This document shows, piece after piece, positions 144 through 10,303 of a stretch of DNA of 64,000 bases (the stretch's first letter is position 1; each line of letters opens with the position of its first letter). The stretch is from assembly GCA_020058765.1 (NCBI GenBank), contig JAGVDM010000005.1:62001-126000 (forward strand), written 5' to 3'. The notes beneath the pieces are model-generated. The model made no database searches and was not told the DNA's origin. It saw only the letters and a program-made list of their open reading frames with translations. This DNA is from Candidatus Peribacterales bacterium (GTDB lineage Bacteria; Patescibacteriota; Gracilibacteria; Peribacterales; Peribacteraceae). A program made the translations under genes and the position numbers.

Positions 144-2036
144 CTATTCAACGGCTGTCTCCTCTGATTCCTTGGGGACAGATGCCTTCTTCTTGCCTTC
201 AAAGATCTCTGTGAACTCTTCTACGGTCATTGTTTCCTTCTTCAGGAGAATGACAGCCAGCTCGTCGAGCTTTGCGCGATGCTTCCGCAGCATTTCCAGG
301 GCACGTGTGTATTGTTCACTGATGGTATTTTCCACGAACGCATCGATCTGCTGTGCCTTCTCCTCCGAGTAGTTGCGGTTCATGCTCGGATCGGCGCCGA
401 GGAACACTGTCCCCTGCCGTTCGCCGTACGCCACCAGACCGAGGTCATGGCTCCCCATGCCGTAGCGCATTGCCATGTCGCGCGCGATCTGCGATGCCTT
501 CTCGATATCGTTGCTCGCGCCTGTTGTGATCTCGTTGTAGATCAATTCTTCCGCTGCCCGACCGCCAAGTAGGCCGCAGATTTCATCGAGGAACTTCGTT
601 TTGCTCGTGGTGAAGGTGTCTTCCTCTGGCAAGAACCATGTCACACCGAGTGCCGCACCTCTGGAGACAATGGAAATTTTGTGCAGCGGATCGGACTCGG
701 GGCACAGGTGACCAACAATGGCATGCCCGAGCTCATGGTAGGCAGTGATCTCCTTTTCCTTCTGTGTGAGTTTGCGGGACTTCTTGGCCATACCAATGGT
801 GACTTTTTCGACAGCCTCCACTAGATCCTTCTGCACGATGTTCTTGGCCTTTCTCTTGGCAGCATTGATCGCAGCCTCGTTCATAATGTTCTCTAGATCA
901 GCACCAGCAAGACCCACGGTCTGCTTGGCTATGTCGCGCAGATTGAGCCCCTTGGCAATCTTCTTATTGCGCGTGTGCACTTCCAGAATCTTCACGCGTG
1001 CTTCCAGATCGGGTTTGTCGATGAAGACGCTGCGATCGAAACGACCAGGGCGCATGAGTGCTCTATCGAGCACATCGGGGCGGTTGGTTGCCGCCATGAC
1101 AATCACGTTTGTGCCCTGCTCGAAGCCATCCATCTCGGTAAGGATCTGGTTGAGTGTCTGTTCACGCTCGTCGTGACCACCACCAAAACCAGCGCCGCCG
1201 CGTTGGCGACCTACAGCATCAATTTCATCGATGAAGATGATGCAGGGTGAATTGCGCTTCGCTTTGGCGAAGAGATCACGCACGCGGCTGGCACCCACGC
1301 CCACGAACATCTCGACGAATTCGGAACCGGCAATAGAGAAGAACGGCACGCCCGCTTCGCCAGCAACGGCGCGAGCGAGGAGTGTTTTCCCTGTGCCTGG
1401 AGCGCCTACAAGCAGCACGCCCTTCGGAATCTTGGCGCCAATGTTCATGTACTTCTTGGGGTTCTTGAGGAAGTCGACTACTTCTTCGAGCTCCTCCTTT
1501 GCTTCATCCATACCTGCTACATCTTTGAACCGCGTGCGTACCTGCCGCGCATCGGCAATGCGAGCGCGCGACTTCCCAAAGGAAAGCGCCGTGCTCTGGC
1601 TGCGAGCAATACCGCGGAAGAGCCAGAAGATGCCTCCAATGATGAGCAAGAAGAAGAGAAGGTCGGGCAGGATGGCGTAGAACATGTGTGTGCTCTCGCG
1701 GTTTTCGATGCTCACGACTGTGTCGTTGTCTGAATCGTTCCAACCTAAATCTGCAATGCTCTCCCCTGCCTTATATGCCTGTACAAGCGAACCTGTATCG
1801 CTGCGCAGCGTGGCATACACCGTGTTGTCTCGCACAATGATCTCCGCGTACTCCTCCGCATCATATCCGCGCGTGATCTCGCTCAACGACACCTCCTTTG
1901 CATCGCTGAACTTCCGATCATCCGCGCGCTGCGGTGCAGTAATGTTGAGTACTGCGAAAAATAGCAGCAGGCAGAGGAGAAACGCCGTGAAGAGCCATTG
2001 AGGACGACGAGGTGGCTGTCGAAGTGGGGTGGCCAT
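144..2036 (-). CDS. ftsH: ATP-dependent zinc metalloprotease FtsH
   Basis: This is a 630-residue membrane-anchored AAA+ protease that extracts and degrades membrane and cytoplasmic proteins as a hexamer. Visible parts in order: a transmembrane helix near residues 14-33, an extracytoplasmic segment of about 85 residues, a second helix near 121-143, an AAA+ module with Walker A GAPGTGKT, Walker B FIDEID and the second region of homology ([20 protein letters not shown]), then a protease domain with the zinc site HELGH. The C-terminus is Lys/Glu rich. Length and order match typical bacterial FtsH. The ATG at 2036 follows an extended -10 box by 10 nt and no Shine-Dalgarno sequence is present. It is divergent from the PMT-type gene at 2149. 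Confidence 0.97.
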
Positions 2037-2148: not shown

Positions 2149-3666
2149 GTGCGTCTCTCCGAGATTCTCCATCGCATACAACAGCCGGCGGCAGTCGGGC
2201 TCTTCCTTATTACACTGTTGTCGTTTTTTTCGTACGTGCACAATTACGCAGAGCCAGATGCGCTCTTTTGGGATGAGAACTACCACATCGCTAGTGCACA
2301 GAAGTACATCCACGGCGTGTTCTTTATGGAGCCGCACCCTCCGCTTGGTAAATTACTGATTGCTGCCGGGGAACTTCTTCTCTCACCCAACGAAGCAACG
2401 GATCAGTTCATTGGTACAGACTACGCAAAAGATCCACCAAAAGGATTCTCGTTTGCGGGGTATCGCTTATTTCCCGTGCTGCTTGGGTGGCTCTGCGCGC
2501 CAATCTTTTTTGGCATCATGTTTGTTGTTACACGTAGGAGTTTGCTCGCCACACTGCTGAGCTTTTTGTATGTGTTCGATAACGCGATCATCGTCCACAG
2601 CAGGTCGGCAATGCTGGAATCGGCCATTCACTTCTTCCTGCTGGCAATGTTGCTGTGCTTCCTACTGGTACTGCGGTCGGAACACTACTCCAAGCAGCAG
2701 CGCATTTTTGCCGTGGTGATGGGTATGGCGTTTGGCGCACTCGTGACCACAAAGCTCAATGGGCTTGTGATGCTTGTGCTCTTCCCAATGTTGCTCTGGC
2801 ACTTCCGCAATGCGTTGCATGCAGGCGCCGAAGTATTCGTACTTACCACTGCTGGATTCCTACTCGTGTTCGTACCGGTGTGGCACACGCACTTCGCTCT
2901 TGGCTCACGCGTGATTACCACACTGCCGGATGGCAATAATGAGCCGGGGTTCTACCAGGCATCTCCCGCGTACAAGGCTATCGTGCGAGAAGGGAAGAAC
3001 GGCTCACTCCTGAACTTCCCCGTAATGCTTGCCGACTCCATGAACTTCGTGGGGCACTATGAACGTGGTGTGCCTCCGTTGGATCTGTGCAAAAGCGGTG
3101 AAAACGGCAGCCCGTGGTTCCTGTGGCCATTCGGTGGACGCACGATCAGTTTCCGTTGGGCCACACCTAACGGATATGCCTACCAATACCTGTACCTTGT
3201 GCCGAACTTGGTGGGATGGATGGTTTCCCTTGCTGGCGTAATTCTGGCCGCCGGACTGCTGCTCGCATCGGCAATCCTCCCGCTGAAAGAAAAACTACAA
3301 CACGGGTTTTTGATGTTCACACTCCTGGGTCTGTATGGCGGCTACATGGTCGCCATTAGCCGCATTGATCGTGTGATGTACCTGTACCACTACTTCCCTG
3401 CCCTGCTGTTTGGCTACGTGCTCTTTGCTATCGCCATTATGGAAATACGTCGGCTTGGCCCCATTGCCGTTACGGCAAGTATCCGCACAGGCATTGTGTT
3501 TGCCTGTGCGATGGCGGTGTTCGCAAACTATGAGTACTTCCGCCCGCTCACCTACTACAAATTGATCACCGATGCGGAGTTCCAGCAACGCAACTGGCTG
3601 CAGATTTGGGATATGAAGTGTGTGAAGTGCGAGCGCGACAGTATGCTCGTGAAGAAGACGTGCTAG
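2149..3666 (+). CDS. PMT-type (GT39) dolichyl/polyprenyl-phosphate-mannose protein mannosyltransferase
   Basis: This 505-residue polytopic membrane protein has the hallmarks of the GT-C family GT39/PMT. The first extracytoplasmic loop contains the acidic WDENYH motif, followed by FMEPHPPLGKLL, which is typical of protein O-mannosyltransferases. Roughly ten hydrophobic segments follow. No MIR domain is present, as in bacterial PMTs. The expected reaction is transfer of a sugar from a polyprenyl-phosphate carrier to Ser/Thr of exported proteins on the outer face of the membrane; the sugar cannot be read from sequence. The GT2 at 3778-4467 (convergent) is of the dolichyl-phosphate-sugar synthase type and could make the lipid-linked donor; this pairing is inference. 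Confidence 0.85.
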   Translation: MRLSEILHRIQQPAAVGLFLITLLSFFSYVHNYAEPDALFWDENYHIASAQKYIHGVFFMEPHPPLGKLLIAAGELLLSPNEATDQFIGTDYAKDPPKGFSFAGYRLFPVLLGWLCAPIFFGIMFVVTRRSLLATLLSFLYVFDNAIIVHSRSAMLESAIHFFLLAMLLCFLLVLRSEHYSKQQRIFAVVMGMAFGALVTTKLNGLVMLVLFPMLLWHFRNALHAGAEVFVLTTAGFLLVFVPVWHTHFALGSRVITTLPDGNNEPGFYQASPAYKAIVREGKNGSLLNFPVMLADSMNFVGHYERGVPPLDLCKSGENGSPWFLWPFGGRTISFRWATPNGYAYQYLYLVPNLVGWMVSLAGVILAAGLLLASAILPLKEKLQHGFLMFTLLGLYGGYMVAISRIDRVMYLYHYFPALLFGYVLFAIAIMEIRRLGPIAVTASIRTGIVFACAMAVFANYEYFRPLTYYKLITDAEFQQRNWLQIWDMKCVKCERDSMLVKKTC

Positions 3667-3777: not shown

Positions 3778-4467
3778 TCAGCGCGACAGCCGCAGCCGCA
3801 CCAAATCTCGGAACATCCGAAGAATCACCGAGAGCTTTGCGCCTGTTTGCTGACCGTACAAACGTGGATAGTGCTCCACGAATACCTGTTTCCATGCAAT
3901 CCCCTTACGCTTGGCGCGGTAGAACGTCTCTGCATTAAAGAGTGCGCCCGTCGCGAACTCCGGGCAAATGGTAGACCAAATGTCTCGCCGGAACATCTTC
4001 ATGGCGCAATTGATATCTCGCACCCAGATGCCAAGAATCAATACATTCAGCACGGCGAATCCTTTAGCGTTCAGCTTCCGCATGAACGGATCTGCACGTT
4101 TGCGACGGCGACCGGTAATGATGGCGTACTCGCCAACGAATGGCAGCAGTTTGCGGAAGTCATGTGCCTTAAATTGACCATCGCTATCCATAAAGGCAAT
4201 CCATTCCTTGGTGCCGGCATCCAAACCCGATTGGACTGCGCAGCCATAGCCACGATTCACCTCATGGGTCACCACCTTCAGTTGCGAAATTTCTGCAGCC
4301 AAGCGTGCGAGTACGGCACCTGTACCATCTCGTGATCCATCATTCACCGCAATGATTTCACCATCCACCTGATCCTCTACAAACCACCTAAGTACGTCGC
4401 GAATCGTCTGTTCAACGTTCGCTTCTTCGTTGTAGCACGGCAAGGCAATGGAGATGCTCACGCTCAT
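3778..4467 (-). CDS. Family 2 glycosyltransferase, polyprenyl-phosphate sugar synthase type
   Basis: The 229-residue cytoplasmic GT-A fold protein begins at ATG 4467 (SVSISIALPCYNEE), which places the first beta strand at the N-terminus as in GT2 enzymes. A longer frame back to 4569 has no family resemblance. Visible motifs: PCYNEE, VNDGSRDGT, NRGYGCAVQSG and the metal-binding MDSDGQ. There is no C-terminal membrane domain. The likely role is transfer of a sugar from a nucleotide donor to undecaprenyl or similar phosphate. It is divergent from the planctomycete-like gene at 4654. Confidence 0.8.
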   Translation of the reverse strand: MSVSISIALPCYNEEANVEQTIRDVLRWFVEDQVDGEIIAVNDGSRDGTGAVLARLAAEISQLKVVTHEVNRGYGCAVQSGLDAGTKEWIAFMDSDGQFKAHDFRKLLPFVGEYAIITGRRRKRADPFMRKLNAKGFAVLNVLILGIWVRDINCAMKMFRRDIWSTICPEFATGALFNAETFYRAKRKGIAWKQVFVEHYPRLYGQQTGAKLSVILRMFRDLVRLRLSR

Positions 4468-4596
4468 TGGGGTGAAGTATTGCCGGAGATCGAGAAAAAG
4501 TACACCAATGGCAATTGATGGAGGGTGTGAGGCAAATACGAGAACACTCTTTCCCCAAGTTCGCAGCAAGAATCATACACAGAATGGCTACTAGAC

Positions 4597-4653: not shown

Positions 4654-7422
4654 ATGAGCGTTTCTACCGTCAAAACCGGCGAAGCTCAGGGGGAATTCGA
4701 TCCCTACGCTGAATGGCTGTCCATTGGGATGGATAATCGGCCGATCACGCACTATGCGCTGATGGGCTTTTCTCAAGCAGAAGCTCTAAAAATGTTCGGC
4801 CGTGCGCTCACAGAAGCGGAGAAAAAGCGTGTGGAAGCCGCCGCAGATCGCAATATGAGCTTCGTGCGCAATTATCAGACTGGAAGCCAGAGTGCGCTTT
4901 CGCAGCGGATCCTGAATGAACTCGCCAGGGCAAAAGTGATACTTCTGGATGACAACCAGAAGCTCCGATACGACGCTAGTTTGGGCAGATCCATCAGCAT
5001 CGGCCCGCACCAAGGTGTGCGCCAGGCATTGTTTGAAACAACGGGAGCACAAAAGGTGGAGTTGGGTATAGAGCCACCAAAAACCAAAAGACCCCAACCT
5101 CGGCAAGTGGCTCCTGCCCCCAAAGCAACTGGCAATGGATCTCCGGTAACACCAAGCGCACCTGCTGTGCCACCTGCAGTCGTGCCGACCAAGGCACCAC
5201 CACCTGTATTGGAAGTGCTGGATCACGGTCCTGTTGTCGCTCCTGAACAAGGATGGAATTTTGCAGGAGCCAGCGATCAATCTTCGATTGATGCCTACAA
5301 ACGCAAAAAACAGGAGCCGAGCTGGTTGCAGAAAAATACAGCTGCAGTAGTAGCAACTGTTGGTGGTATTGCTGTGGTTGGTGCAACTGGCTTGTATGCC
5401 ATCTTTGGCGGTGGCGGCAAACCCGCAGAGTCAGAAGACAATCGTCCAGTTCTCAAAAAGACGGACGATGATCTTGTGAAGCATCCACCCATCAGGCCTC
5501 TGGGCGTTCCAACAGTGGAGCCGGAAAAGCCGGTGATCGGTACGCCGGTTGAAGGAGAGAAAGATCCTCCACAAGTTGCCATCAATGTGCCGGAGGTGAA
5601 GATTGACCCCGAGGCAGAAGCAAAGCGTCTTGCAGAGGAACAGAAAAAGAAAGAAGAGGAGGCGCAGAAGAAATTCGATGCAGATGTGGAACAGCAGTTC
5701 CGTAGCCTGCAGACACGATACGCCAATCTGCCATCTTCCAACTTAGAGCAGCTCGGTGAAACAGAACCTGATTCTGTAACGAAAACTGCGCTTACTCGTC
5801 TGGTAGCCGAGCGCCGTGCACAGGAGCAATCCACCGCTGTATTCAGGGGCAAAGTGGAAGAGATGTTCAAAACGCTTTCGGCACCAAACAGTGCCTACAA
5901 AGATTTTGAGCCTGCACAGATTGTTGCGGCAGCGAAGGGCGAAAAGGATCCTGTAACGCAAACAGCACTGTTCATTTTGGCTGCATCACGCGCAGGCCGC
6001 GCCGGCAATGCATCTGAACTACACAATGCTCTTAACAGCATCAATGTTGCCCAGTTCCCGAGAGCACAAGTGATTTCCGTAGAAGCAAGCCTCCTCGCTG
6101 GGAATGTGAATGCTCCATCAAAAGACATTACGCTGGAAGAAAGACTGGGCATGGCTGGTCTGGCCACCCATGACATCATGGATGAAGCAATTGTTCTGGA
6201 TGACTTCAAGACCGCAAACAAGCTCCTTGCAGCAGCTGAGGAATACATGAAAGGAATCAGCACGGGATCAATACGTAACCCCGACGATCGAATGCACTAC
6301 GGAGAAATGCAGAAAAATCTGCGAGCACGCATTGTAGCGAGAAAGCAACAGCTTGCGACATTCTCCACTTTGCATGCCACCCATCAGTCCGGTCTCAACC
6401 TTGCCCTAGAGCCAAAGGGGCCCCAGGAGCACGTGCAGACAGGCATCTACTTGATCATTGCTAAGCGAGATTGGAAACAGGCATTGCCACACTTCCAAGC
6501 CGGTAACGACGCATTGCTCGCAAAGGCGGCGCAGATGGAAGCGGGTAAAGTAACAGATGCCCAAGGGCAGTATGCCCTCGCAGTGGCATGGAAGACTGCA
6601 GGCGACGGCAAGGCAGCTGGCGAGGCTACACCATGGTACGAGCGCGCTGCGCACTGGCTTGTACTAGCAGAGAAGCAGAAGCCAAAGGGTAAGTTGGAGT
6701 TGGATGTAGCGTTACTAAGGAAAGAGTTGGAAAGGAGTGGGGTATCTTTGCCAACCGATGCGGTGCAGGTTGCAGAGGTTGCAGTTGAAAAAGAAATGTT
6801 CCCTGAGGGGAAATGGAGTGAAAACGTCCTTGCAAAGGTGGATTTTGAAAAATTGCGTGTGCTTCGAGGAACATGGCAAAAAGCTGAGAATGGAGGTGTG
6901 CAAAACACCACCCCTATTGATAAATGTAGGATAGGTATCCCACTGGAGATCAAGGGTGACTACGATTTGCGATACGTCTTTACTAGGACACGCGGCACAG
7001 ATGGGGTTTGCATCATAATTCCAATTATGGATAGCACTGGCAATATCAGAAATACAATGCTCTTGATCAGCGCAGGTGATGGAGCAGTGGGTGGACTAGA
7101 AGTAATTGACGGCAAGCGATCAGATGCAAATCCAAGTACCGTCAAACCCTCAATGATTCAAAACAATGCGCAATATGAATTGGTAGTAAGTGTTCGGTAC
7201 GGAGCTGTGAACCGTCAACCATTAGTTGCCATTCAATCAGCCATTAATGGTAAGCCTTACGTCGGATGGCAAGGGAATCCAGACTCACTTTCAATGACAC
7301 CGAAATGGGAATTACCAGCAGATGCGCAGGTTGGCTTAGGGTCTAATAATACAAACGTAACTTTTCATAGTTTAGAGGTGAAAAGAGGAGCTAAAACAAC
7401 AGTCGACTTGGATCAGAAATAG
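4654..7422 (+). CDS. Large single-pass membrane protein resembling planctomycete multidomain proteins
   Basis: This is a 922-residue protein. Residues about 13-112 (FDPYAEWLSI, HYALMGF, AAADRNMSFVRNYQTG, ALSQRILNELARAKVILL, LRYDASL) resemble a DnaJ-like N-terminal module I know from many Planctomycetes proteins. A Pro-rich linker and one transmembrane helix near 227-250 follow, then a Lys/Glu coiled coil near 310-345 and a helical region. Near 600-690 a segment (RDWKQALPHFQAGND, then YERAAHWLVLAEK) also resembles planctomycete repeats. The C-terminal 190 residues (DYDLRYVFTRTRG, GGLEVIDGKRSDANPSTV, GLGSNNTNVTFHSLEV) look like the beta-sandwich that closes those planctomycete proteins. Topology predicts the small N-domain inside and the bulk outside. 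Function is unknown. The last 500 bases turn AT-rich. The family resemblance is from memory and not from a search. Confidence 0.75.
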   Translation: MSVSTVKTGEAQGEFDPYAEWLSIGMDNRPITHYALMGFSQAEALKMFGRALTEAEKKRVEAAADRNMSFVRNYQTGSQSALSQRILNELARAKVILLDDNQKLRYDASLGRSISIGPHQGVRQALFETTGAQKVELGIEPPKTKRPQPRQVAPAPKATGNGSPVTPSAPAVPPAVVPTKAPPPVLEVLDHGPVVAPEQGWNFAGASDQSSIDAYKRKKQEPSWLQKNTAAVVATVGGIAVVGATGLYAIFGGGGKPAESEDNRPVLKKTDDDLVKHPPIRPLGVPTVEPEKPVIGTPVEGEKDPPQVAINVPEVKIDPEAEAKRLAEEQKKKEEEAQKKFDADVEQQFRSLQTRYANLPSSNLEQLGETEPDSVTKTALTRLVAERRAQEQSTAVFRGKVEEMFKTLSAPNSAYKDFEPAQIVAAAKGEKDPVTQTALFILAASRAGRAGNASELHNALNSINVAQFPRAQVISVEASLLAGNVNAPSKDITLEERLGMAGLATHDIMDEAIVLDDFKTANKLLAAAEEYMKGISTGSIRNPDDRMHYGEMQKNLRARIVARKQQLATFSTLHATHQSGLNLALEPKGPQEHVQTGIYLIIAKRDWKQALPHFQAGNDALLAKAAQMEAGKVTDAQGQYALAVAWKTAGDGKAAGEATPWYERAAHWLVLAEKQKPKGKLELDVALLRKELERSGVSLPTDAVQVAEVAVEKEMFPEGKWSENVLAKVDFEKLRVLRGTWQKAENGGVQNTTPIDKCRIGIPLEIKGDYDLRYVFTRTRGTDGVCIIIPIMDSTGNIRNTMLLISAGDGAVGGLEVIDGKRSDANPSTVKPSMIQNNAQYELVVSVRYGAVNRQPLVAIQSAINGKPYVGWQGNPDSLSMTPKWELPADAQVGLGSNNTNVTFHSLEVKRGAKTTVDLDQK

Positions 7423-7439
7423 AAAATTTGTTCGTCTGC

Positions 7440-8354
7440 TTATTTGTCGCGAATACGACGATCAAGGAGCAATTTTCCGAAAAAACCAAAAATCGTTAAC
7501 ACAATCAAATCAATGCCTCTGCGAATGATCGCAAGTGTGAACATATCTTCAGCTGCAATACCCATGTAAAAACCAACAAAAATATAATACGCCTCTAGAA
7601 GGCCTATGCCTCCGGGTGTGAAGCTAATAAATAACAAAATGGAACTGATTGCTGTTATTAGCAATGCACCCAAAATACCAACGTCAATATTGATGCTTTG
7701 AAATATCAACATTAAAAATACCGACTCTGAAATGAGATAGACAAGCTGATATGCAGCAACTCCAAACAGGATTCTTTGATTACCCAGTATAGACCGCCAA
7801 CTATGCAATAAATGATCAAATTTAGCAGGCAATTTAATCTTATTGCTAAGAATAATAACCACGAGAGTAATGGCAATAATTGAGGAAAAAAGTGCTAGAT
7901 ACCGCGAAAGATTTCCTCCCTCATTAGAAAATGAGAGGTAGATTATTACTAATAAAACGACGAACGAGCTGTTTAGTATTGTTACCAGACAAAGGCCGCC
8001 AACTGATGTGATGAAGCGATAGTATGTAAGTTGATATCCCATTTTAAGGAACCATGCTCTAAATACTATTCCCGCTCGTACTGGCGAAACCAAATTTAAC
8101 CAAGAACTTGTCGCAACCAACCAAAATGGCTCTTTCAAATAAACATGATGTGCCGTTAAGGAAATCTTAATTTGCTGACCATTCAGCCATATGCTCAGAA
8201 TGGCAAAGGGCACTGCAAAAAAAATCGGAACTACGTTTACGTTAATAAAAGCATCCTTGTTAACGACAATAAACCAAGTCGCTGTTATCAAAAAAAGGGC
8301 GACGACGACGATATTAACAATTGTAGATATTTTTAGTTTGGTAATTCGCGACAT
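7440..8354 (-). CDS. Flippase-like integral membrane protein (LPG synthase transmembrane/UPF0104 type)
   Basis: This 304-residue protein has about eight hydrophobic segments and the pattern of the lysylphosphatidylglycerol synthase transmembrane domain family, including the late motif SFTPGGIGLLEAYYIF (in the family usually PGGxGxxE) and SPVRAGIVFRAWFL. Such proteins are often found in glycan loci and proposed to move lipid-linked sugars, but the substrate is not readable here. I chose ATG 8354 over a TTG at 8402 because the region between holds a TATAAT promoter. The gene is distinctly AT-rich compared with ftsH or the ribosomal genes, with many AAA and ATT codons, which suggests transfer together with the next two genes. 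Confidence 0.75.
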   Translation of the reverse strand: MSRITKLKISTIVNIVVVALFLITATWFIVVNKDAFINVNVVPIFFAVPFAILSIWLNGQQIKISLTAHHVYLKEPFWLVATSSWLNLVSPVRAGIVFRAWFLKMGYQLTYYRFITSVGGLCLVTILNSSFVVLLVIIYLSFSNEGGNLSRYLALFSSIIAITLVVIILSNKIKLPAKFDHLLHSWRSILGNQRILFGVAAYQLVYLISESVFLMLIFQSINIDVGILGALLITAISSILLFISFTPGGIGLLEAYYIFVGFYMGIAAEDMFTLAIIRRGIDLIVLTIFGFFGKLLLDRRIRDK

Positions 8355-8403
8355 AGAATTGGAAACTGAGATTGAAGCTAGAAAACATGTTTGTTTACTC
8401 AAA

Positions 8404-8412
8404 CATTATAAG
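8404..8412. promoter_or_regulatory. Overlapping divergent -10 boxes
   Basis: CATTATAAG contains TATAAT on the minus strand (8410-8405), about 50 nt before the flippase-like ATG. On the plus strand CATTAT (8404-8409) ends 8 nt before the methyltransferase ATG at 8418. One small palindromic core could serve both directions. Confidence 0.4.
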
Positions 8413-8417
8413 AATCT

Positions 8418-9170
8418 ATGATTAAGAATCTAAGTATTATGCCTATCTACACTAAAGAACAATTAAGGGGCTTGTACAACCTTGACGAACATCATAGATG
8501 GATGGAAGTCATAGATGAAAATGACGTTTGTCACCCTTGTTACCCTCTTTATTTGCGACAAAAGGAAAGAATTTTAAATTTAGTCCCATACATTCAATTT
8601 GAAAATAATCCTTCTGTTGCTGAATTTGGATGTGGAAACGGAATTTTTGGCGAAGTAATCAGTAAAAATGTGCGGTCGTATGTTGGAATTGATTTTTCAA
8701 ATGATTTCATTGCCCTGGCAAAAAAACGCCACACACTTTTAGGTATAAAAAATAGCCAATTTTTCTGTGATGAAGTTGCTAGCTTTGCTCTCAGTAATAA
8801 AGAGAGTTTCGATATGGCATTTTCAATAGATTTTAGCGAGCACTTCTATGATTCTGACTTTGTTAAGATATTTACATCTATTAAAGACACGCTAAAACCC
8901 GGAGGTACTTTATACATTCACACTCCAAATGGTGACTTTATTTTGGAACTTATGAAAAAATTTCATCTTATTAAGCAAACCTTGGGACATGTTGGTATTA
9001 GAAATTTCCGACAACATGTAAACCTATTAAAAAGAACTGGCTTTAATAATATTCGCATAACTTATATACCTCACTATGTAAGGCTTTTTAGGCGTTTTCA
9101 CGCAATGAGCTATTTGCCATTTTTGGGACGATTTTTTGGCGCTCGAATATTAATTGTTTGTGAAAAGTAA
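8418..9170 (+). CDS. Class I SAM-dependent methyltransferase
   Basis: The 250-residue protein has the Rossmann methyltransferase signature: motif I VAEFGCGNGIFGEV (about residues 62-75), the acidic end of strand 2 in YVGIDFS, FDMAFSIDFSEH and LKPGGTLYIHTPNGDF. It fits the Methyltransf_11/25 group, which includes enzymes acting on sugars, lipids and small molecules. Its place between a flippase-like gene and a WecB-like epimerase suggests a glycan substrate, by inference. Low GC, like its neighbours. A second ATG at 8439 is possible. Confidence 0.8.
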   Translation: MIKNLSIMPIYTKEQLRGLYNLDEHHRWMEVIDENDVCHPCYPLYLRQKERILNLVPYIQFENNPSVAEFGCGNGIFGEVISKNVRSYVGIDFSNDFIALAKKRHTLLGIKNSQFFCDEVASFALSNKESFDMAFSIDFSEHFYDSDFVKIFTSIKDTLKPGGTLYIHTPNGDFILELMKKFHLIKQTLGHVGIRNFRQHVNLLKRTGFNNIRITYIPHYVRLFRRFHAMSYLPFLGRFFGARILIVCEK

Positions 9171-9208
9171 CCTGAGATGAGATTCCACTTTTGGTTTCCA
9201 AAAAGAAT

Positions 9209-10303
9209 ATGCTGCTATTTTTTCTAGGCACTAAGGCTCAGCTCATTAAAACGGCACCGCTAATAAAAGAATGTGAAAGGCAAAATGTACCGTATAAATT
9301 CATTTTTCTGAGTCAGCACTGGAATACAATTGATGAGCTGTTGAAGGATTTTGAAATCCCCCCTCCAGATATATACATCTTGAAAGGGCATGATGTGACG
9401 CGTGCATGGGTAATGCCGCTCTGGGGGCTAAAAGTGTTGTGGGGCATTTATCGCCAGCGAAAACGGATATTCTCCACTCCCCACGAAATAGTCGTGGTAC
9501 ATGGCGATACTATTTCTACGCTTATTGGAGCATTTGTAGGCAAGTGTGCACGGAGAAAAGTTGCGCATGTGGAAAGCGGATTGCGATCGTTCAATCTACT
9601 GCATCCTTTCCCCGAAGAAATCATACGAATTTGTACATTTTACTTATCCGACTATTACCTTTGCCCAGGCCAAATACCACTACAGAATCTCTCCCGATTT
9701 GGCGGTGAGAAAATAAATACCCATGTGAATACATTGTATGACTCGCTTACGATTGCATTGGAAAAGGCATCGAACTTACCGAAGATAGAGAACATCTATG
9801 CCATTTGTTCGCTACATAGGTTTGAGAATATCTATTCGAAACAAAAGCTGACTGAAGTAATTAATCTGGTGAAAATGGTCGCAAACACTATTCCGCTGTT
9901 TTTTGTCCTGCATCTGCCCACAGTCAATAAATTAAAGAAATTTGGGCTGCTCCATGAGCTAGAGAGCCATCCCAATATTTCCCTGCTGCCAAGGCAGGGC
10001 TTTGTGCGTTTTATTCAATTCATCAATAATGCTGAATTTGTCATTACAGATGGAGGCAGCAACCAGGAAGAATGCTTCTACTTAGGCAAGCCTTGTTTAT
10101 TACTGCGCCAGTGCACAGAAAGGGAAGAGGGGTTGTCTGGGAACGTACTTCTTTCTAAATTTGAACGAAAGAACGTGGAAGATTTCGTCCACAATTACCA
10201 CAAATTTCTTCGGCCACGATTCCAGGCAACAACATCTCCATCTCAGCTCGCTGTAAAATATCTAGCAGATGTGATTCGAAAAATTGAAAGTGCTCGTTCA
10301 TAA
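9209..10303 (+). CDS. UDP-N-acetylglucosamine 2-epimerase family protein (WecB-like)
   Basis: This 364-residue protein has the GT-B-like epimerase fold. It shows GTKAQLIKTAPLI at the N-terminus, VVHGDTISTLIGAFVGK, VAHVESGLRSF, HPFPEEIIR (cf. PFPEEINR of the family) and late ITDGGSNQEECFYLGKPCLLLR. WecB enzymes interconvert UDP-GlcNAc and UDP-ManNAc; a hydrolysing variant is also possible. ATG 9209 is preferred over a TTG at 9191 because it starts directly before the first beta strand. It follows the methyltransferase by 38 nt, probably co-transcribed. Codon use drifts back toward higher GC in the second half. Confidence 0.8.
   Translation: MLLFFLGTKAQLIKTAPLIKECERQNVPYKFIFLSQHWNTIDELLKDFEIPPPDIYILKGHDVTRAWVMPLWGLKVLWGIYRQRKRIFSTPHEIVVVHGDTISTLIGAFVGKCARRKVAHVESGLRSFNLLHPFPEEIIRICTFYLSDYYLCPGQIPLQNLSRFGGEKINTHVNTLYDSLTIALEKASNLPKIENIYAICSLHRFENIYSKQKLTEVINLVKMVANTIPLFFVLHLPTVNKLKKFGLLHELESHPNISLLPRQGFVRFIQFINNAEFVITDGGSNQEECFYLGKPCLLLRQCTEREEGLSGNVLLSKFERKNVEDFVHNYHKFLRPRFQATTSPSQLAVKYLADVIRKIESARS

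Follow-up and report, generated by a model that had tools for sequence, protein, structure and literature searches.

How did a protein whose segments resemble those of large Planctomycetota proteins come to be encoded in a reduced Patescibacteria genome? The question is raised by a gene for 922 amino acids in a 64,000-nucleotide stretch of contig JAGVDM010000005.1 (hereafter, the window). A first-pass annotation of the bare sequence had described three planctomycete-like segments, in planctomycete order and with a single membrane helix, in a small-genome lineage, and had taken this to mean either transfer or a much wider spread than assumed. The lineage was described correctly: the genome is 1.17 Mb in size, 99% complete, and belongs to the same family as Ca. 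Peribacteraceae STF1_71, which NCBI taxonomy places in Ca. Peribacteria. We found no earlier report of the protein in Peribacteria in the open-access literature searched. The evidence presented below makes it likely that the Peribacteraceae obtained a Planctomycetota-type modular membrane protein laterally and have kept it.

Modular architecture and planctomycete relatives

The gene (4654..7422, + strand) is an ATG-initiated open reading frame (ORF), and the limits of its modules were set with HMMs. These were built iteratively from seeds taken from the protein's own segments, and the E-values given for them come from profiles that contain the window sequence. The protein consists of an N module, a linker, a membrane helix, a Pro/Glu-rich stalk, a helical M module, and a β-sandwich C module, in that order. 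The N module (residues 15–111; 4696..4986, +; E 6e-27) is, as judged by its profile, a planctomycete-type relative of the J domain without HPD. It is followed by a Pro/Ala-rich linker, delimited by composition and predicted to be cytoplasmic (residues 116–231; 4999..5346, +), and by the membrane helix (residues 232–250; 5347..5403, +), which is marked by its flanking charges and by a hydropathy peak of 1.93, the only one above threshold in the protein. KRKK lies shortly N-terminal to the helix and an acidic, Pro-rich stretch C-terminal to it. Because the positive charges are N-terminal, the positive-inside rule predicts an N-in/C-out topology. Beyond the helix are the stalk, rich in Pro, Glu, and Lys and again defined by composition (residues 251–345; 5404..5688, +), the M module (residues 561–685; 6334..6708, +; E 3e-29), identified by HMM and alignment over a 'GDWxxGLPxLAxGxDxxLxxLA ... 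RAxxWY' region, and the C module (residues 724–907; 6823..7374, +; E 6e-52), identified by HMM and fold matches. The three segments and the single helix of the first-pass annotation coincide with these independently found modules and with the helix after the N module.

Used alone as a query, the protein matched no Pfam family and no PDB sequence, and the Pfam and NCBIfam models searched do not cover the planctomycete modular family. A first contig scan across genomes with the window protein as query returned no relative, and a plasmid search for relatives found none.

Each of the three segments has significant matches in Planctomycetota, as the first reading had supposed from motifs. The N module is 43% identical to a single planctomycete sequence, L015, compared directly and without a profile (E 6e-20), and the C module is 36% identical to one from G428 (E 9e-26). 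The M and C modules together align colinearly with a third single sequence, L041, over 394 residues at 27% identity (E 1e-15). L041 (Pirellulaceae bacterium Arabian9_MAG_5, ORF 4980–7898) has the module order of the window protein, with N at residues 8–93, one membrane helix after it at 173–191, M at 626–752, and C at 779–950. Its N module is 35% identical to that of the target, but it carries an extra region of more than 300 residues between the helix and M. Other planctomycete proteins are arranged N-C-C-M or N-M, and the planctomycete N module also precedes C-terminal parts as varied as WD40, NPCBM, F5/8 type C, and prenyltransferase-like regions. Identities between the window protein and planctomycete proteins range from 23% to 44%, and no sampled planctomycete protein is close to it along its full length.

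To survey the N module more broadly, we scanned 84,980 named species genomes with planctomycete-like motifs, a design that divergent relatives in other phyla may escape, and confirmed 119 loci. The best 80 of these 119 carry planctomycete names except for five: two in STF1_71, two in a 'Nealsonbacteria' bin, and one in a 'bacterium' bin of 8.1 Mb. The two 'Nealsonbacteria' loci (L013 and L045; JABMRB01, bin.20) were rejected as members of that group, as the 9.1-Mb assembly has 10 N-module matches and is probably a mislabelled planctomycete. Equally good matches spread over many phyla were not seen. Six planctomycete or planctomycete-like genomes contain from 2 to 16 N-module matches each, and this high copy number, with the many N-module fusions, makes the Planctomycetota look like the home of the family. 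In an even sample of 199 Planctomycetota genomes, the N profile passes E 1e-10 in 29, and a search with the bare window protein finds some match in 24; by sequence search, the N module therefore belongs to part of the phylum rather than to the whole.

Genomic setting and distribution in Peribacteraceae

The contig is genuinely peribacterial, because ftsH (144..2036, − strand), 2.6 kb from the target, is 68–80% identical to ftsH in 20-odd genomes of the same family, compared with 47–59% for the class's other families. The next gene, a conserved neighbor of ftsH, encodes a PMT-type protein O-mannosyltransferase (2149..3666, +; Pfam PF02366/PF16192 and synteny), and a family 2 glycosyltransferase gene (GT2; 3778..4569, −; Pfam PF00535 and synteny) lies immediately upstream of the target. 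In STF1_71, ftsH and the PMT gene (59% identical) are followed by one homolog of the target, copy b, which adjoins the PMT gene; about 10 kb further on, a GT2 gene 73% identical to that of the window stands beside another homolog, copy c. Mixed bins do exist, the planctomycete-like 9.1-Mb 'Nealsonbacteria bin.20' being one, and a planctomycete fragment could in principle have entered a peribacterial bin through assembly or binning. However, the contig that carries the target is at least 126 kb long and has a family-type ftsH close to the gene, homologs occupy the corresponding ftsH-PMT locus of STF1_71, independent assemblies from at least seven genera (g1, g14, g17, g25, g28, g33, and g63) contain members, one of these assemblies being a single contig, and the identity to planctomycete proteins is just 23–44%. 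We regard an artefact of this kind as extremely improbable.

The target gene has a GC content of 0.508 and a GC3 of 0.477, which give no sign of recent arrival. Downstream, three genes of surface-glycan type (7440..10303; Pfam and composition) encode an LPG_synthase_TM protein (−), a methyltransferase (+), and a UDP-GlcNAc 2-epimerase-like protein (+). Their GC content is 0.34–0.42, compared with 0.52 for the window, and this low value suggests a separately acquired surface-glycan cassette.

We searched 353 genomes of the class. The bare protein found relatives in the window's own genome, STF1_71 (G221), G032, G215, and G218, and in none outside the family. The N profile added G201, G198, G216, and G027, all at E 7e-9 or better and all from the same family; weaker matches (below E about 1e-6), where inspected, were ordinary DnaJ proteins with HPD. 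N-profile matches in G199, G200, and G026 were rejected as members, being DnaJ with long upstream frames. The C profile recognized only the window's genome, G032, whose member is a fragment at a contig end, and STF1_71. The M profile, run on chosen genomes, added G016, where the start of the ORF is a barely recognizable J-like stretch. Neither the N nor the C profile found a member in any other family of the class; among the 353 genomes, true members are confined to this one family. Across 380 Patescibacteria, the N profile gave one further match, weak and doubtful, in G686 (L162), a Patescibacterium outside the class; the J-like protein it encodes is 226 aa long, lacks HPD, and has a membrane helix at its C-terminal end.

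The peribacterial members fall into two groups, type A (the window and STF1_71) at the ftsH-PMT-GT2 locus and type B mostly beside ligA. The gene order in the window is ftsH, PMT, GT2, target. G013, G007, and G016 keep ftsH-PMT-GT2 but have other genes directly after it, and G012 keeps PMT-GT2; the target is absent at this place in all four. Synteny therefore places the type A position in common between the window and STF1_71 and shows it to be empty in these four relatives. Type B genes adjoin ligA in G215, G218, G201, G027, and G016, and in G216 other neighbors from the ligA-side set are present. One type B member lies in a single-contig 1.25-Mb genome. Type B proteins (G215, G218, G201, G216, G027, and G016) resemble the target in having a J-like N end, a helix, a Pro-rich stalk, and an M module. 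They differ in that the J-like end is very diverged, the setting is mostly the ligA side rather than ftsH-PMT, and the C-terminal part, although similar in size, is not recognized by the C profile.

The STF1_71 copies have the same modules as the target, but their N modules are far closer to planctomycete ones (70–76% identity). The C module is recognized in copy a only, and this copy is 23% identical to the target over the full length. Copies a and b have 682 bp at the N end in common (82% identity), whereas copies b and c have in common the 1,094 bp that follow the N end (87%). By this pattern the three paralogs (L120, L121) are mosaics, between which the N module has been exchanged. The N tree alone is thus a poor guide to the history of the whole gene.

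Trees and the probable direction of transfer

The N tree, built on 86 columns with DnaJ as the outgroup, intersperses the peribacterial rows with planctomycete ones; constraining the peribacterial rows to a single clade carries a penalty of 24.6 log units (AU P = 0.036). The M tree places the window protein and STF1_71 copy a as sisters (99/99), and the C tree resolved nothing for the window. A combined N+M tree (30 rows, 217 columns) was rooted at the midpoint, with no outgroup. It joins the window protein to STF1_71 copies a and b (91/78) in a group that sits among planctomycete rows, and it unites type B with G198 in a separate group (96/94). Placing every peribacterial row in one clade is rejected (AU P = 0.016). 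The nesting within Planctomycetota that the first-pass annotation looked for is suggested for type A, with moderate supports, long branches, and an uncertain root; under midpoint rooting, type B lies outside the planctomycete rows. Taken by itself, the position of type B would be compatible with an older source common to both groups, or with the family having arisen in Peribacteraceae.

That position and the G686 protein would fit an old inheritance or a far broader distribution, in which the family predates the split between Planctomycetota and Patescibacteria and was lost nearly everywhere. This history is unlikely, given that the other families of the class are empty by N and C profile and the 380 Patescibacteria yield one doubtful match, that type A is placed among the planctomycete rows and the AU test rejects one clade for the peribacterial rows, and that the N modules of STF1_71 are so close to planctomycete ones. 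The transfer proposed at first reading is well supported by sequence comparison, with planctomycete matches for all modules, type A among planctomycete rows, and members in only one family of the class. The same does not hold for the donor or for the number and dates of transfers: the modules are short and diverged, and the trees combine long branches with moderate support, including at several key branches.

The direction from Planctomycetota to Peribacteraceae is supported but not settled. It is based on how broadly the family occurs, on its copy number, and on trees of moderate support, and no sampled planctomycete protein is near the window protein over its full length, which leaves some room for a reverse transfer or for a third, unsampled lineage that supplied both groups. 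Against this stands the planctomycete N module itself, fused to many C-terminal parts and matched up to 16 times per genome, and we consider either of these courses a minor possibility. For a transfer out of Planctomycetota, at least two entries, or one entry followed by recombination, would account for types A and B; this is favored rather than proved, given an N+M tree without an outgroup, its long branches, and the recombination of N modules. Both the source of type B and the transfer direction are read from distribution and copy number.

Predicted structure and possible role

The N module was modeled with a pLDDT of 90.7 as a helical arrangement. Its profile matches the J domains of DnaJ from the peribacterial class (hhalign probability 96%, E 2.7e-9), and its best sequence matches in the PDB are nearly all J domains; the top Foldseek matches of the model are also J domains, although weak (E 0.6). 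The DnaJ J domain (PF00226) and the N module are alike in fold and profile, but HPD is missing in 106 of 107 modules, including that of the window, and Pfam does not recognize the target's module. HPD is required for J proteins to stimulate DnaK. The homology and fold would suit a membrane-bound co-chaperone with a real J domain working with DnaK, a role that the loss of HPD and the lack of a Pfam DnaJ match make very unlikely. From its profile, the N module is better described as an HPD-less relative of the J domain.

The C module, folded alone, was modeled with a pLDDT of 85.6 as a concanavalin-A/lectin-like β sandwich. The best match of the model is the CBM66 domain 4azz (Z 14.7, rmsd 2.9 over 152 residues, 12% identity), and it also resembles ERGIC-53 and legume lectins. 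The predicted fold is like that of these domains. Searched against the PDB, the C profile found no significant lectin or CBM, with a best glycosidase match at E 0.05. The M profile had no match in the PDB.

From the J-like N module, the lectin-like fold of the C module, and the neighboring glycan genes, we infer a surface protein whose lectin-like head is held by a cytoplasmic pseudo-J domain, although having the lectin fold in common does not by itself establish a function. The protein would be anchored in the membrane in N-in/C-out orientation. Its pseudo-J domain would lie in the cytoplasm and probably dock to a partner, and, since HPD is lost, would not be expected to stimulate DnaK. The stalk and the helical M module would hold the C module outside the cell, where it could bind glycans of either the cell's own coat or a partner cell. 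The own-coat option is raised by the PMT and glycosyltransferase genes in the target's neighborhood.

Peribacteraceae are probably host-dependent, and we found no report of a host for Peribacteria in the literature searched. A complete Peribacteria genome was recovered from an incubation whose most abundant group was the Planctomycetes (PMC9040852); this co-enrichment only suggests an association, and the paper itself states that it is no demonstration of a physical one. The target may hint at which bacteria Peribacteraceae cells live with. Tentatively, Planctomycetota could be the partners on or with which Peribacteraceae live, and parts of the partner's cell-surface toolkit could have passed to the Peribacteraceae, including the lectin-headed protein and large proteins with the planctomycete export motif, a scenario to which we give limited credence. 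If it is true, the transferred genes would document, in the genome, a host relationship that is otherwise unproven. A surface-type architecture common to just these two groups makes the suggested association testable. The locus also offers a view of a modular planctomycete family rearranged inside a reduced genome.

Sharing with planctomycetes may go beyond the target protein, because several Peribacteraceae carry the PF07595 motif at the starts of large ORFs. We ran PF07595 on 14 chosen and 14 control genomes and counted start-of-ORF matches alone, because 5 of the 14 controls also give matches below the cut-off. G198 and G218 gave matches above the cut-off, and several other genomes fell just short of it; the window's own genome gave E 0.05, which is not significant. 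The ORFs that have the motif near their start are about 690 aa or longer, an example of the motif being RRLGVETLEDRRLMSVA in G198; it lies close to the ORF start and corresponds to the planctomycete export consensus RRLxxExLExRxLLA (PMC8567305). It was seen near the starts of large ORFs (L195–L203) in G198, G218, G027, G216, G201, and G012, once in a 14,636-aa frame of the single-contig genome G027. In STF1_71, an ORF of about 1242–1260 aa between copies b and c (L121:2776–6501) has RRLSMEPLEDRCMLSA near its start; it also matches LamG and M15 peptidase and, below the threshold, PF07595.
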